A stretch of DNA of 64,000 nt from an uncultured Granulosicoccaceae bacterium (lineage in GTDB: Bacteria; Pseudomonadota; Gammaproteobacteria; Granulosicoccales; Granulosicoccaceae), in NCBI GenBank assembly GCA_938007995.1, contig CALLLW010000001.1, positions 1-64,000 of the forward strand, read 5' to 3'. The notes beneath the pieces are model-generated. The model saw only the letters and a list, made by a program, of their open reading frames with translations, searched no databases and was not told where the DNA came from. This document shows positions 14,562-38,108 of this stretch, piece after piece. The position numbers and the translations under genes are program-made. Each line of letters opens with the position of its first letter. Within the stretch, counting starts at the first letter, position 1.

Positions 14562-16064
14562 CTAGGTGGGGAAGACCGACAGCCCGACGCGGTGACGCGT
14601 TTGATCCGCATGTGTGCGATCAAGTCGTCCGACAATCGGGCCCAGAATCACCAAGGTGATAAATAACAACACAATCTCGATCAGATAAACCGCCTGATAG
14701 CCGGTGTTGATGCTGTTTAATGTTTGGCCAAAAATGTTGTGCGTCGCCAACTGCGACACCAGATCTCGAAAGCTGCCGCCGAGTGCAATAGCAACACCGG
14801 CTGCAGTCGCCTGTACTGCACCCCATGCACCGAGTGCCATGCCTGCATATACTGTATTTTGCTGACGCGCCATTTCAGTGGCCAGCATGCCAACCGAGAA
14901 CATACCGCTGCCCATACCGATCACAAACGTGCCGGTCTGAATCATCGGCACAGAACCAAACGGTGCGGCAAGGATAATCGCGCTGAAAGCAAACGCACCG
15001 AGTGTGGCACCGTAGGCGGCAATTCGACTCGGGTCGGTGCCCTGCCGCTTTGATTCTGGTTTACTAAATTCTGGCTCACTACCTGTTGATGCTGATGTGG
15101 CTACTGTCTTCGCCGCCATCAGCTTTGCAGCAACTGAAAAACCGCCCAACATGCCGGTCACCAGTATGCCGGTAAGCAAGGTAGTTGCCCCCACCCCGAG
15201 GCCGAGTGCATGCCCTGCATAAGGTTCAAGTAATATGTCCTGCATACCGAAGGCAGATGTGCCCAGTGCCAGTGCAATCAAAAAACGTCGCGTGTGTTTA
15301 TGGCTGATGTACTCAAGCCAGACAGACGCAAAAGCCGGTCGCGTTCGTTGATGATTTGTGACCGCTCGATTGCGCGCTTCCTGTTTGTAACAGGCGGCAA
15401 GATTCAAAAAAAGAGTCAGTACCGCCGCTGCCTGTAACACTTGTATTAATCGGATCTGACTGAATGGTTCAAGCAGTGCAGCAAATACCAGTGAGCTGAC
15501 CACCATGCCGACCAGCAGCATCACATATAAAAGTGCGACAACGCGGGTACGGCTTTTTGCAGGAGCAATATCAGTCGCCAGTGCCAGACCTGCAGTTTGT
15601 GTGGTGTGCATACCCAGACCGACGAGTAGAAATGCCAGCGCGGTTGCCGCTTTGGCATACCAGGCCGGCCAGTGGGTATCACCCGACAGAATAATTAACG
15701 CAAACGGCAAAATAGCCAGCCCGCCAAATTGCAACATGGTACCGATAAACAAAAACGGCACCCGACGCCAGCCGAGATAAGACACATATTGATCAGAACG
15801 ATGCCCGATTAAAGCCCGCAACGGTGCGATCACCAACGGTACCGCAATCATCAATGACACCAGTGTTGCCATAACACCCAGCTCAACAATCATTACCCGA
15901 TTTAACGTACCGTTGAGCAACACGAAACACATGCCCGCGCTGAATTGAAACAGCGCCAGCCGCAGGATGCGCGATAACGGTAAATCCGTGCTCGCAGCGT
16001 CTGCAAATGGCAGCAGTCGCAAACCATATCGTCGCCAGAAATCGGTAGACGAACGCACACTCAT
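14562..16064 (-). CDS. lhaA: LhaA, BCD-family LH1 assembly protein
   Basis: A 500-aa, twelve-helix MFS-type protein of the bacteriochlorophyll delivery (BCD) family. It is encoded between bchM and puhA, the fixed position of lhaA. The N-terminal LPFADAASTDLPLSRILRL and the first-helix motif GTLNRVMIVELGV are shared with pucC in this window. LALATDIAP and PYAGHALG are also family motifs. LhaA is needed for LH1 assembly in Rhodobacter. A ~35-residue Ser/Thr/Glu/Lys loop near residues 310-345 separates the two six-helix halves. The start overlaps the bchM stop (ATGA). Confidence 0.93.
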   Translation of the reverse strand: MSVRSSTDFWRRYGLRLLPFADAASTDLPLSRILRLALFQFSAGMCFVLLNGTLNRVMIVELGVMATLVSLMIAVPLVIAPLRALIGHRSDQYVSYLGWRRVPFLFIGTMLQFGGLAILPFALIILSGDTHWPAWYAKAATALAFLLVGLGMHTTQTAGLALATDIAPAKSRTRVVALLYVMLLVGMVVSSLVFAALLEPFSQIRLIQVLQAAAVLTLFLNLAACYKQEARNRAVTNHQRTRPAFASVWLEYISHKHTRRFLIALALGTSAFGMQDILLEPYAGHALGLGVGATTLLTGILVTGMLGGFSVAAKLMAAKTVATSASTGSEPEFSKPESKRQGTDPSRIAAYGATLGAFAFSAIILAAPFGSVPMIQTGTFVIGMGSGMFSVGMLATEMARQQNTVYAGMALGAWGAVQATAAGVAIALGGSFRDLVSQLATHNIFGQTLNSINTGYQAVYLIEIVLLFITLVILGPIVGRLDRTHADQTRHRVGLSVFPT

Positions 16065-29457: not shown

Positions 29458-29485
29458 AGCAAACTGTTACGTGGAGGAACTCACA

Positions 29486-30877
29486 ATGAAGAGCGACAAA
29501 CTTGGATGGCTCGGTATCTTCCGTCTCGGGCTGGTGCAAACCGCACTGGGTGCGATGGTGGTGCTCACTACCTCAACGTTAAACCGGGTAATGGTCGTTG
29601 AACTGGCACTCGCTGCCATGCTACCCGGGGCACTGGTTGCTCTGCACTATGCGGTGCAGATAACACGACCGAAAATGGGCCACAGCTCTGATGTGGGCAC
29701 AAGACGAACGCCATGGATTATTGGCGGTATGGTCGTGTTGGCTATCGGCACTGTCAGCGCTTCATTGTCTACCGCTTTAATGGCAAGCTCCACCAGTTTG
29801 GGTATTGCGGCGGCTTGTCTATCTTTTGTACTGATCGGTTTGGGTGTAGGCGCTTCAGGCACATCATTGCTTGCGCTGCTAGCCTCACAGGTTGAACCAC
29901 ATAGAAGACCCGCAGCGGCTACCATAGTCTGGGTCATGATGATTGCAGGCTTTGTTATTACCGCAGGCGTTGCAGGAGCCAACCTTGACCCGTTCACGAT
30001 GCAACGATTAATTGTGATCACCACCATCGTAGCCTGCATAGCAGTACTGGTCGCCATTTTTGCGATTTGGGGCGTGGAAAAAAAATCCCCTGTACTCAAT
30101 GCACGACCTGATCAGTCAGACAACACAACGCAGCAACAAACGCCTGCCTTTAAAGATGCACTCAGATCTACCTGGCAGGATCCACAGGCAAGACAATTCA
30201 CCATTTTTGTTTTTGTATCGATGCTTGCCTATAGCGCACAGGATTTAATTCTCGAACCGTTTGCAGGTTCCGTGTTTGGCTATAGTCCCGGTGAGTCCAC
30301 CCAGCTTGCAGGTGTGCAACACGGCGGAGTGTTACTGGGCATGATTATCGTCGCCATTCTCGGAACACAGCTTGCCAAGCGCTACAACGGCAGCCTGAAA
30401 CCCTGGTGTGTTGGTGGCTGCATTGCCTCTGCTGCCTCACTTGCCCTCCTCGCTATGGGCGGATTGATGGGTGACAGCTTTCCATTGCGACAAGCCGTGT
30501 TTGTATTGGGCTTGTCCAACGGTGTGTTTGCCGTGGCCGCTATCGGCTCAATGATGGCGTTAGCCAGCACCGGTAAAACACAACGCAGAGAAGGTATAAG
30601 AATGGGTGTCTGGGGCGCGGCGCAGGCAGTCGCGTTTGGACTTGGCGGCTTTATGGGCACCGCGCTGATCGATCTATCCCGCGCACTGATCAATGATACG
30701 TCAATGGCTTATGCACTGGTATTTGCCATACAGGCGATACTTTTTATTGTTGCTGCATGGCTTGCGGTGAATCTTGGTTACGCTCCTGTGCAACGTCATA
30801 TCAACACTTCAGGTATGCCAACGCGGGGACTACCTCAGCAGGCCTATACAAAACAGGGAATTGCAGAACATGCATAA
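29486..30877 (+). CDS. BCD-family MFS carrier between bchG and bchP
   Basis: A 463-aa twelve-helix protein related to PucC and LhaA: GTLNRVMIVEL-like motif here as STLNRVMVVELALAAMLPG, then LILEPFAGSVFG and RMGVWGAAQAVAFG. Homologs between bchG and bchP are common in PGCs (often called orf428 or PucC-like) and are thought to handle pigments or assist light-harvesting assembly. ATG 29486 is chosen over GTG 29471 because GGAGGA lies 7 nt before it. The end overlaps the start of bchP by 8 nt. It is one of three paralogs in this window. Confidence 0.88.
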   Translation: MKSDKLGWLGIFRLGLVQTALGAMVVLTTSTLNRVMVVELALAAMLPGALVALHYAVQITRPKMGHSSDVGTRRTPWIIGGMVVLAIGTVSASLSTALMASSTSLGIAAACLSFVLIGLGVGASGTSLLALLASQVEPHRRPAAATIVWVMMIAGFVITAGVAGANLDPFTMQRLIVITTIVACIAVLVAIFAIWGVEKKSPVLNARPDQSDNTTQQQTPAFKDALRSTWQDPQARQFTIFVFVSMLAYSAQDLILEPFAGSVFGYSPGESTQLAGVQHGGVLLGMIIVAILGTQLAKRYNGSLKPWCVGGCIASAASLALLAMGGLMGDSFPLRQAVFVLGLSNGVFAVAAIGSMMALASTGKTQRREGIRMGVWGAAQAVAFGLGGFMGTALIDLSRALINDTSMAYALVFAIQAILFIVAAWLAVNLGYAPVQRHINTSGMPTRGLPQQAYTKQGIAEHA

Positions 30878-32105: not shown

Positions 32106-32624
32106 ATGATATTCGGCTATCCATCCTGGACTGTAATCATTGTTGCATTACTGACCGCCGCAGTAGCACTGGCCGGGGGACTGCTCACACAAATCGGCCC
32201 TTGGTATCGGCAATTAAAAAAGCCAACCTGGCAACCACCCGACTGGTTGTTTGGCCCTGCCTGGACCATCATCTTTATACTTGCCGCCTATGCAGCGATT
32301 GACAGCTATACCAACACGTCAGGCAATGCCCGTACCGCAGTAGTTGTGGTGTTTGCCATTAACGCAGTACTGAACATCGCATGGAGTGCTTTTTTCTTTA
32401 CGCTGCGCAGCCCAATGATGGCATTGTATGAAGTTGTGCTGCTGTGGCTGTCGATCATTTCAATTATGGTGGTGATCTCACCCTACTCGCCACAGGGTGT
32501 CTATGCACTGATACCGTATTTGCTGTGGGTCAGCTTTGCCGCCTTTCTGACCTACACCATAGTGCAACTGAACGCACCGGGTGCTACCCGAAACAGTTCA
32601 TCTGATAACGCAGAAAATTCATGA
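32106..32624 (+). CDS. tspO: TspO/MBR tryptophan-rich sensory protein
   Basis: A 172-aa, five-helix membrane protein. Family motifs include GPWYRQLKKPTWQPPDWLFGPAWTI and an Asn-Ala-Trp-type segment NAVLNIAWSAFFFTLRSP. In Rhodobacter sphaeroides TspO (CrtK) is an outer-membrane protein that modulates photosynthesis gene expression in response to oxygen, probably by handling porphyrin intermediates. Its operon position between bchP and crtF supports the same link. The stop overlaps the crtF start (ATGA). Confidence 0.93.
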   Translation: MIFGYPSWTVIIVALLTAAVALAGGLLTQIGPWYRQLKKPTWQPPDWLFGPAWTIIFILAAYAAIDSYTNTSGNARTAVVVVFAINAVLNIAWSAFFFTLRSPMMALYEVVLLWLSIISIMVVISPYSPQGVYALIPYLLWVSFAAFLTYTIVQLNAPGATRNSSSDNAENS

Positions 32625-33768
32625 AAAGCTGTAGCGTTGTGCAACGGTGGTGCCATCATCTGTACATTAGCCTGATTGGCAATGAAACTCTCGGTCGCAT
32701 CATGATGCGCGTGTGGCCACGCCGGGTGCAAGGCGATGCAGAGTCACTGTTTGATTTAATCAGCGGGTTTGTCTATTCACAGGTTTTGTTTGCTGTGGTG
32801 AAACTTGATCTTTTACCCTTGTTAAAAAAAAAGCCTGCCATCTTGATGACATCGCCCGCTTTACAGAGCTTGATCTGCCGGCAACCCGTCGCCTGCTAAA
32901 AGCTGCAACTGCACTACAACTGACGCACGAGTTGTCGACTGACACTTACGGGCTCGGTAAACATGGTGCCGTTCTGCTTAGCAACCCCGGTCTGCTTAAC
33001 ATGGTGCTGCACCATGAACACCTTTACCGCGACCTTGCCGATCCGATTGCCTTATTCAAAGGTAACGTACCTACAGAACTGGCAAGCTACTGGAGCTATA
33101 CGCAGTCAGACGTAACAGCTGCGCACAAAGAGGCGACTGCCACCTACTCACAACTCATGGCAGACACACAGCCTATGGTTGCAGCCCAGGTATTGGCTGC
33201 ATATTCATTCAGCAATACGAAAAGAATGCTCGATCTCGGTGGTGGCACCGGTGCATTCCTGCGCGCGGTCAATGCGCGTTACGAACATATTGAAGCAACA
33301 GTCTATGATTTGCCTGCAGTTATCGAGAGCGCGGTTAAAAACAATCGTTCAGATGTAAACCTGCACCATGAATCAGGAAAAGCGGATAGCAGCAACAATA
33401 AAAACTCCGTTCAATTTATCGCAGGAAATTTTTTTAACGATCCACTACCCGATGGATACGACACGATTTCTGTCGTCAGAATACTGCACGATCACAATAC
33501 GGATGCTGTCACTGCCCTGCTGAAAAAAATTTATCTGTCACTGCCGCCAGATGGCACGCTATTAATTGCAGAGCCGATGGCGAACACACGCCGTGCAGAG
33601 CGCGTTGGCGCTGTGTACTTTAATTGCTACTTTCTGGCCATGAACCAGGGCGAGCCGCGATCTATTCAGACGCTCGAACGGATGTTACAGGAAGCAGGTT
33701 TCTCAAAAATCGACCATCACCCGACAACACTGCCCTTGGTCTGCAGCGTCATGACAGCCACCAAATAA
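32621..33768 (+). pseudogene. crtF: CrtF hydroxyneurosporene O-methyltransferase, split by a -1 shift at an A9 run
   Basis: The 5' part (from ATG 32621, coupled to tspO) encodes ESLFDLISGFVYSQVLF and LDLLPLLKKK, the CrtF N-terminal region. It then goes off frame and stops at 32897-32899. The other frame, entered at GCC 32833, continues as ACHLDDIARFTELDLPATRR, then GLGKHGAVLLSNPG and the SAM motif MLDLGGGTGAFLRA, to the stop at 33768. Joined, they give a normal-length protein of about 382 aa. The break is at nine A's (32824-32832) within A-AAA-AAG. It could be a true frameshift, a homopolymer error, or programmed or transcriptional slippage. CrtF methylates hydroxyspheroidene-type carotenoids. 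Confidence 0.85.
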
Positions 33769-33794: not shown

Positions 33795-33836
33795 TGTTGA
33801 TATAAATTGACATAATTCAGCACTTACAGGTATGGT
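33795..33836 (+). promoter_or_regulatory. PpsR-type operator and promoter upstream of the 33913 gene
   Basis: TGTTGATATAAATTGACA (33795-33812) fits TGT-N12-ACA with the right half GACA intact. TTGACA (33807-33812) overlaps it and is followed after 18 bp by TATGGT (33831-33836). The arrangement of box over -35 is the same as at bchF. Confidence 0.6.
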
Positions 33837-34719: not shown

Positions 34720-35035
34720 ATCGCGGAGACAGGCAAAAGCGGCAGGACGCCGCGTTAGCGAAGCGGGCGCTTCCATGGATGTGCCTTCTGAGCGTGCCTG
34801 TTGGAGCGATGAAATACAAAATGGCGCAGCCACCCGAAGGGCAAAATGGCAGCAAAAAGACTTTTTGCTTCCGTTTTTGGTCTTTTCAAAAATGAAGGCC
34901 GCCGGCAGGGCAAGTCAGAGCGACAAGCCGCCTGCAAGACAAGCCAAAGCGACAAACCACCCCCAGCGCAAGCCAGAGCAAGCCAGAGCAATGGCCGCCC
35001 GCAGGGCAAGCCAAAGCCATAACCCGGCGCAACAC
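34720..35035. repeat. Repeat-rich non-coding stretch upstream of pucB
   Basis: The 34603-35215 interval has no supportable gene. One open frame (34706-35086, plus) is Arg/Ala/Gln/Lys-rich and is probably not coding. The stretch contains the perfect palindrome AGCAAAAAG-A-CTTTTTGCT (34851-34869). Runs of CAAGCC(A/G)(A/G)AGC-like copies follow (about 34908-35015), two of them preceded by GCAGGGCAAG. The composition looks like a dispersed intergenic repeat inserted upstream of the puc promoter. Confidence 0.5.
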
Positions 35036-35215: not shown

Positions 35216-35380
35216 ATGGCAACAGATCTGAACGACCCGGACCGAGTCTGGCCTACCGGCCTGACGATTCGTGAATCGGAAGAAATCCACAAACATGTCA
35301 TCGACGGTGCACGAGTTTTCTTCGTGATCGCACTGTTTGCCCATGCATTGGCATTCATGTTTAGCCCCTGGTTTGGATAA
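35216..35380 (+). CDS. pucB: LH2 (B800-850-type) beta subunit PucB
   Basis: A 54-aa light-harvesting 2 beta polypeptide. The N-terminal pattern [20 protein letters not shown] and the [12 protein letters not shown] segment match LH2 beta rather than LH1 beta. The membrane helix [15 protein letters not shown] carries the conserved His that ligates B850 bacteriochlorophyll, and the end is PWFG. An AGGAGA ribosome-binding site lies 9-14 nt before ATG 35216. pucA follows 11 bp downstream with its own GGAGA. Confidence 0.93.
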
Positions 35381-35391
35381 GGAGACCTGTT

Positions 35392-35535
35392 ATGAATCAA
35401 GGTAGAATCTGGTGCGTTGTCAGCCCCAATGTCGGCCTGCCACTGTTCCTCGGTGCAGTCGCATTGATATCTCTGATTGTTCACTATAGCGTGCTTTCCA
35501 ATACCACATGGATGGCTGCGTTTTTTGGTGGATAA
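35392..35535 (+). CDS. pucA: LH2 alpha subunit PucA with Phe44-Phe45 (low-energy-shifted type)
   Basis: A 47-aa LH2 alpha polypeptide. [10 protein letters not shown] matches the canonical LH2 alpha start, where Met1 contributes the B800 ligand. One helix contains LIVHYSVL with His31, the B850 ligand. The C-terminal [11 protein letters not shown] aligns without gaps to the family. Positions 44 and 45, normally Tyr-Tyr or Tyr-Trp and hydrogen-bonded to the B850 acetyl groups, are both Phe here. That substitution is known to blue-shift the long-wavelength band, so a B800-820/830-type complex is predicted. Confidence 0.93.
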
Positions 35536-35656: not shown

Positions 35657-37075
35657 ATGAACAGTCTGTCACGCAAATTAATCAATACGTGGATCCGTGT
35701 CGGATCTCGCTATTTGCCATTTGCGGACCTTGCAACAGCTGATCTGTCGCTATCACGTTTGTTGCGACTCTCACTATTCCAGATTTCCGTCGGCATGACG
35801 CTGGTGCTGCTGGTCGGCACATTGAATCGGGTGATGATTGTCGAGCTTGGTGTACCCGCCTCACTGGTCGGCATCATGTTAGCCATCCCGCTGGTTTTTG
35901 CACCGTTTAGAGCCTTGATCGGTTTTCGCTCAGACAACCATCGTTGTGCACTCGGCTGGCGACGCGTGCCGTTTATCTGGAACGGATCTCTATTAACCTT
36001 TGCCGGACTTTCAATCATGCCATTCGCACTGCTGGTGCTTGCCGGTAGCGGTGAAGCTGCAAAAGTCCCTGACTGGATCGGCCAGATAGCAGCATCACTG
36101 GCCTTTTTGCTGGCAGGAGCTGGTATTCATGTTGTGCAGACAGCAGGACTGGCCCTGGCCACTGACCTGACACCGCAGTCATCGCATGCAAGAGTTGTAG
36201 GCTTTATGTATGTTGCGCTGCTAGTTGGCATGTTGGTCAGCGCGCTGCTCTTTGGTGCCTTGCTGGCCGACTTTACCCCGGGACGGCTGATCCAGGTAAT
36301 TCAGGGTGGTGCAGTGCTGAGCGTGGTGCTCACCGTGACAGCAATCTGGAAACAGGAAGCCAGACGCTCATGGCAAGCGGTAAATGCCGAACCGCAACCT
36401 GATGCAACCTTTAGCGAGACCTTTAAAACCTTTTGCGCCGGACCGCACACCAAAAGACGATTAACCGTTGTAGGTCTTGGTACATTAGCGTTCGGTATGG
36501 CAGAGATAATTCTCGAGCCTTTTGGCGGACAGGTATTATCGATGAGCGTCAGTGCAACCACAAAACTTACTGCACTGTTAGCACTAGGTGGTTTAATCGG
36601 ATTTTGCTTTGCATCAAAAGTACTGGCGAATGGCTATGACGCCTATCGTATAAGTCGTGATGGTGCGCTTGTTGGCCTACCCGCTTTTGCACTGGTTATT
36701 TTGTCAGCACCGCTGGAACTGCAGTCGATTTTTATTATTGGCAATTTCTTAATTGGCTTTGGTGCCGCACTCTTTGGACAGGGCACACTGACCGCAACGA
36801 TGCACAGCGCACCAGCCGACAAAGCCGGCCTCGCGATTGGTGCGTGGGGTGCGGTTCAGGCAACTGCTGCAGGTGTAGGTATAGCGCTGAGCGGCATAGT
36901 ACGCGACCTTATTACCCGCTTTACAGAACAGAGCACGCCGACAACCGGCTACTACACTGTGTACAGTATAGAGCTCGTTCTACTGGTACTGACTATCGTT
37001 GCCACATGGCCGCTGATAAAAACGGTTCGTGTTTCAAGTAACAACAATTTGACTTCAGGCAAAGTAACTACATGA
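35657..37075 (+). CDS. pucC: PucC, BCD-family LH2 assembly protein
   Basis: A 472-aa twelve-helix BCD-family protein placed directly after pucBA, the usual place of pucC. It shares with lhaA the start SRYLPFADLATADLSLSRLLRLSLFQ and the motifs VGTLNRVMIVELGVPASLVG, TAGLALATDL and LAIGAWGAVQATAAGVGIALSG. PucC is required for normal LH2 levels in Rhodobacter. The stop overlaps the start of the deformylase gene as ATGA, so the latter is translationally coupled. Confidence 0.92.
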   Translation: MNSLSRKLINTWIRVGSRYLPFADLATADLSLSRLLRLSLFQISVGMTLVLLVGTLNRVMIVELGVPASLVGIMLAIPLVFAPFRALIGFRSDNHRCALGWRRVPFIWNGSLLTFAGLSIMPFALLVLAGSGEAAKVPDWIGQIAASLAFLLAGAGIHVVQTAGLALATDLTPQSSHARVVGFMYVALLVGMLVSALLFGALLADFTPGRLIQVIQGGAVLSVVLTVTAIWKQEARRSWQAVNAEPQPDATFSETFKTFCAGPHTKRRLTVVGLGTLAFGMAEIILEPFGGQVLSMSVSATTKLTALLALGGLIGFCFASKVLANGYDAYRISRDGALVGLPAFALVILSAPLELQSIFIIGNFLIGFGAALFGQGTLTATMHSAPADKAGLAIGAWGAVQATAAGVGIALSGIVRDLITRFTEQSTPTTGYYTVYSIELVLLVLTIVATWPLIKTVRVSSNNNLTSGKVTT

Positions 37076-37721: not shown

Positions 37722-38108
37722 ATGGAAGACAACAAGTATCTATTCACTTATGGCACGCTCGCACCGGGGCGGGAAAATCATGATGTGATCGCCAAAGTAC
37801 CTGGAGTCTGGCTACCAGCGACCATTAAAGGCAATTTTTATCAGCATGACTGGGGCGCTGCGCACGGATGCCCCGGTGTAGTTCCTGATTTAAACGGCAG
37901 CTAAGTCAGCGGCTACTTATTTTGCTCTGATGAGTTGCCACAATACCTGCCTATGCTGGATGAATTTGAAGGCGCTGATTACCAGCGGGTTTTAGTGCCA
38001 GCCACTTTAAACAACGGCACACAACTGCAGGCTTTTGTATACGCAATCAACAACATGTTGCAGCGACTGCTTTCGACACAGCACGCTGTTAAAACAGGTT
38101 TGGCCTGA
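37722..38108 (+). pseudogene. Gamma-glutamylcyclotransferase-like gene broken by an in-frame TAA
   Basis: The frame opens YLFTYGTLAPGRENHDVIAK, the hallmark of the GGCT/YtfP-like fold, and continues GNFYQHDWGAAHGCPGVVPDLNGS to a TAA at 37902-37904. After it the same frame resumes with VSGYLFCSDELPQYLPMLDEFEG, the expected continuation including the catalytic-type Glu region, and ends at 38108. A single substitution would restore a protein of ordinary length (about 128 aa). It is either a recent nonsense mutation or a base error. The C-terminal tail looks diverged from the family. Confidence 0.8.

Follow-up and report, generated by a model that had tools for sequence, protein, structure and literature searches.

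Probable recent frame loss in crtF, a carotenoid O-methyltransferase gene of a marine, phototrophic Granulosicoccaceae bacterium, within or next to nine consecutive A's

The gene crtF spans positions 32621 to 33768 (forward strand) of the window, the whole 64-kb stretch of DNA that we analysed, and is divided over two reading frames. We consider it probable (about 0.6) that the gene was recently knocked out of frame by the loss of one base, most likely because replication shortened a tract of ten A's to nine, which would make the allele young and perhaps polymorphic or reversible. This reading is supported by the frame break, the deficit of one base relative to the family, the intact catalytic domain, the lack of decay, and the status of the gene as sole crtF. 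Counting against it are a difference of 2 to 3 bits in favour of a break 3' of the run and six departures among 64 highly conserved columns. The features of the locus are the following:

32106 to 32624, forward strand: tspO/crtK-like gene, directly upstream, with an ATGA overlap with the crtF start; matches NF047825 at 4e-28, under the curated cut-off
32621 to 32899, forward strand: crtF 5' part in the zero frame, 92 aa, stop TGA at 32897-32899; residues 1-71 form the N-terminal/dimerisation region of CrtF, and the last ~21 codons are an out-of-frame tail
32810 to 32851, forward strand: interval of the one-base deficit by family-profile score, best at 32833-32840
32824 to 32832, forward strand: run of nine A's (A9), with zero-frame codons TTA AAA AAA AAG and the heptamer A-AAA-AAG at 32827-32833
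32833 to 33768, forward strand: crtF 3' part, read in the -1 frame; encodes the O-methyltransferase catalytic domain, including the SAM motif DLGGGTG and an HDH motif

The start codon of crtF (ATG at 32621) lies inside the stop of the tspO-like gene. After the run the zero frame goes on with CCT and ends at the TGA; the -1 frame has no stop between 32809 and the TAA at 33766-33768, and reading through on A-AAA-AAG gives 382 aa with the junction LLKKK/ACHLDD. Coordinates and translation agree with the earlier note, which had described a gene split over two frames at nine A's and yielding about 382 aa upon a -1 slip. Its description of both halves as intact also holds. The catalytic domain is whole, there is no other stop, and the read-through protein carries its Pfam domains in order on one chain (PF08100 Dimerisation, 9.4e-11, residues 41-121, then PF00891 Methyltransf_2, 2.2e-40). 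Searched separately, the 3' frame matched Methyltransf_2 at 1.1e-40 and the 92-aa 5' fragment gave a weak, partial match to Dimerisation. The A9 is the longest homopolymer of the window and one of 39 distinct A/T runs of at least nine in the 4.69-Mb genome.

The final steps on the way to spheroidene or spirilloxanthin are methylations of 1-hydroxycarotenoids by CrtF (PMC10604819). Judged by its sequence, the gene described here is a CrtF orthologue in a crt/bch context. The window is part of a photosynthesis gene cluster with bch, puh, acsF, ppsR, bchG and bchP genes, and it contains an uninterrupted crtB. Contig C18 of the same genome carries uninterrupted crtI and crtD, adjoining genes that by eye resemble pufL/M/C, together with an uninterrupted crtC homologue; the latter was missed with PF07143 as probe and was recovered with the protein of a relative as query. 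No second crtF was found elsewhere in the genome. The tspO-crtF order recurs in the nearest relative with crtF (G007), and another genome (G026) has its CrtF homologue between crtE-like and bchC-like genes (by eye). The related loci come from known purple and aerobic phototrophs.

Several other features were seen in the window. Two short ORFs at 35216-35535 (forward strand), which by eye resemble light-harvesting beta and alpha polypeptides, lie directly upstream of a PucC/LhaA-like gene at 35657; its product (35657-37075) is one of three membrane proteins resembling the PucC/LhaA/Bch2 family by eye, with no NCBIfam match, the others being encoded at 14562-16064 and 29471-30877. The stretch 34843-35026, located after the ORF at 33832 and before the light-harvesting genes, contains imperfect, G+C-rich repeats of ~34 nt together with a short inverted repeat. 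A GGACT/AIG2-like gene at 37722-38108 (forward strand; PF06094, 1.5e-15 when read through), cut by an in-frame TAA at 37902-37904, lies 5 kb from crtF and is a second case of disruption, caused here by a stop instead of an indel. A ~230-bp unit occurs twice at 150-603, in imperfect copies of 88-94% identity with inverted arms of ~31-33 nt (GTAGGGGAGATAAGC...); next to them, at the edge of the window, an IS110-type transposase seems to begin (by eye).

We recovered 88 CrtF homologues (about 86 distinct), ranging from Granulosicoccaceae to alpha- and betaproteobacteria. None of the 88 is split at the break point; each is encoded in one uninterrupted frame, and the longest A run at the corresponding site is five. 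One of them (L079) is devoid of the N-terminal motif and begins at a contig edge. The family thus shows the outcome that the earlier note had held to speak against its reading, namely relatives whose gene is cleanly in frame and free of an A run. Searches of the genus, family and order gave no relative closer than G007 (46-50% identity); within the family, a single other genus contributed matches of 39-44% identity, from seven genomes. A first contig scan with the window protein as sole query gave no match. Within the genus of the window, a close crtF match is present in only 2 of 14 genomes (G000 and G007, among G000-G013), and our data suggest that phototrophy is patchy in this genus.

The read-through protein has 48 residues from GFVYSQ to ATRRLLKAA, which is the spacing of the great majority of the 88 aligned homologues; G007 has 47. 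Since the read-through spacing equals the family mode, crtF is, by this alignment, short by one base (ten A's expected, or one base missing nearby), or would have two too many (seven A's expected) if G007 alone were matched. The break was then placed with a profile of the family from which the window protein had been left out and against which each possible one-base restoration was scored. Restored CrtF reached 452-457 bits for breaks at about 32810-32851 and less outside this interval. The position claimed in the earlier note therefore stands as far as "at or beside" the run is concerned, and its wording "exactly at" is narrower than these scores permit. The best restorations lie just 3' of the run, at 32833-32840 (456-457 bits, as against 454.3 in the run), because a break there keeps a proline found in 65 of the 88 homologues. 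These scores would fit a one-base deletion in the CCTGCC stretch to which the A run is incidental, but the advantage amounts to merely 2-3 bits, and the chance that the 42-nt interval overlaps one of the genome's 39 A/T runs of at least nine is about 4e-4. A9 runs also have a mutation rate far above that of ordinary sequence. We regard an incidental run as highly improbable and the A9 itself as the likely location of the break.

The gene carries no sign of long-standing decay. The third-position G+C content of its two parts (0.52 and 0.51) matches the value of the genes around it (0.50 +/- 0.03). When relative rates were tested against the intact G007 gene, lineage-unique changes numbered 27 in the window and 31 in G007 (p=0.69), and 21 and 20, respectively, with a broad outgroup. 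This test, the normal third positions and the absence of further stops speak against an old pseudogene, in line with what the earlier note had argued from the stops alone, and the sequence comparison indicates that crtF was under constraint until very recently. At highly conserved columns the window protein departs from the family at 6 of 64, as compared with 4 for intact G007 and a median of 1 for the other homologues. Given that G007 also departs, most of this can be put down to the clade as a whole; a mild relaxation of CrtF before the break is possible.

The earlier note had set four options side by side and preferred none; the dnaX-like slippery site of its heading does not survive these comparisons. 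Programmed -1 ribosomal frameshifting on A-AAA-AAG would draw on an X-XXY-YYZ heptamer that sits in the correct zero-frame phase, but this phase is no independent evidence, since loss of one A from TT-A10-GCC puts the heptamer into the dnaX phase automatically. The note had seen no obvious Shine-Dalgarno stimulator or strong hairpin, and our searches bear it out: four folds downstream of the A9 gave none beyond shuffled sequences (z +0.90, +0.39, +0.43), no Rfam element was found in 32-36 kb, and the upstream sequence TTGATCTTTTACCCTTGTT has by eye no purine-rich, Shine-Dalgarno-like stretch. Heptamers without stimulators shift in Escherichia coli at no more than about ten times the 0.055% background (PMC4066793), which would be too little for a useful level of CrtF. 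As the frame transition is moreover kept in none of the 88 homologues, programmed frameshifting is not supported, and we give it very little weight. Reinitiation at the first -1-frame start (TTG at 32932) was also considered as a route to active enzyme and rejected, because its product would be devoid of the dimerisation region. More can be said for slippage in transcription, by which a fraction of mRNAs with ten A's would yield the useful 382-aa enzyme as the species' normal route to CrtF. An A/T run of at least nine lies at the frame transition, the ORF is restored by +1 or -2, an added A gives a protein of family length, and there is no sign of relaxed constraint relative to G007; nine A's are long enough for efficient bacterial slippage, and the dnaX gene of Thermus thermophilus relies on a run of this kind (PMC5009743, PMC1088944). 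Against this, the run is kept in no relative, the 92-aa product brings no evident benefit, and a recent inactivation accounts for the same data, so we hold this route to be quite unlikely. We similarly think it very doubtful that the A9 is a switch used in this species only, with RNA polymerase slippage or a reversible run length setting the amount of CrtF and hence the methoxylation of the pigment.

An error of the consensus is another explanation: the real gene would have ten (or seven) A's, or a base would have been lost just downstream, leaving one normal ORF. The otherwise undecayed state of crtF and the nature of the source assembly (MAG-like, 94 contigs, 91% complete) are compatible with this, and according to a published analysis, singleton frame breaks are for the most part due to indels and errors of sequencing (PMC3711429). 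We gauged homopolymer miscalls by surveying all A/T runs of at least nine in the genome. Four in-frame genes have an A9 inside or between Pfam domains, namely those for a solute-binding protein (L025), an aminomethyltransferase (L057), a lipoyl ligase (L058) and a DDE transposase-type protein (L065); further ORFs with such runs are open, with the run outside the domain. With at least four A9 genes intact, homopolymer miscalls are not general in the assembly, and inspection of the ORFs in the window showed no other gene broken by an indel. The intact genes tell against an error that recurs throughout the assembly but have no bearing on a single miscall, and we consider a consensus error unlikely.

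A recent one-base contraction thus remains our preferred reading. A functional-type crtF with a tract of ten A's would have been contracted to nine by replication slippage, and the resulting allele is probably young; within the population it may be polymorphic, or the change may be reversible. Runs of nine A's are described as hypermutable and as prone to slippage in both replication and transcription (PMC1088944, PMC5009743), and in genes of endosymbionts that carry long poly(A) runs 12-50% of the mRNA was corrected (review: PMC5009743). For a real A9 allele, some of the mRNA would be expected to be corrected through slippage of RNA polymerase, and the allele is best seen as a leaky null in which a minority of transcripts would regain the frame. 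Loss of crtF would then replace methoxy ends by free 1-hydroxy ends on carotenoids made by the otherwise complete crtB/I/C/D set, and, if the run proves variable, the end-group chemistry of the pigments would vary within the population. Annotation pipelines would call such a gene a pseudogene or miss it, predicting an incomplete spirilloxanthin-type pathway. A recent break at or beside a hypermutable run is a warning against inferring pathway loss, in a family whose phototrophic kelp-associated Granulosicoccus members are a newly recognised group of aerobic phototrophs (PMC9238374).

Compared with the CrtF of purple bacteria, an acyclic 1-hydroxycarotenoid O-methyltransferase (PMC10604819), the protein has the same domains and conserved residues, with a tspO neighbour here and the order crtE-crtF-bchC in relatives; the difference is the broken frame. 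The -1 site of E. coli dnaX shares the heptamer in the same zero-frame phase, but crtF has neither the Shine-Dalgarno stimulator nor the stem-loop and is of the opposite sense, as it would need a frameshift for the full enzyme. The run of T. thermophilus dnaX, likewise of nine, lies in a gene whose zero frame is full length and both of whose products are used, whereas the zero frame of crtF is truncated and nothing of the arrangement is conserved. In Buchnera and Blochmannia, otherwise intact genes are also out of frame at poly(A) runs and rescued by polymerase slippage (PMC5009743); their genomes are reduced and AT-rich, and corrected transcripts have been measured there, whereas the present genome has 4.7 Mb, with ~50% G+C in the window. 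The closest likeness is to the disrupted ORFs or "authentic frameshifts" at runs of nine A or T (Baranov et al. 2005, PMC1088944), where +1 RNA slippage at a single break would likewise restore one ORF. The kind is therefore already known, a disrupted ORF at a slippage-prone run, and crtF, read from its DNA, is a further case.
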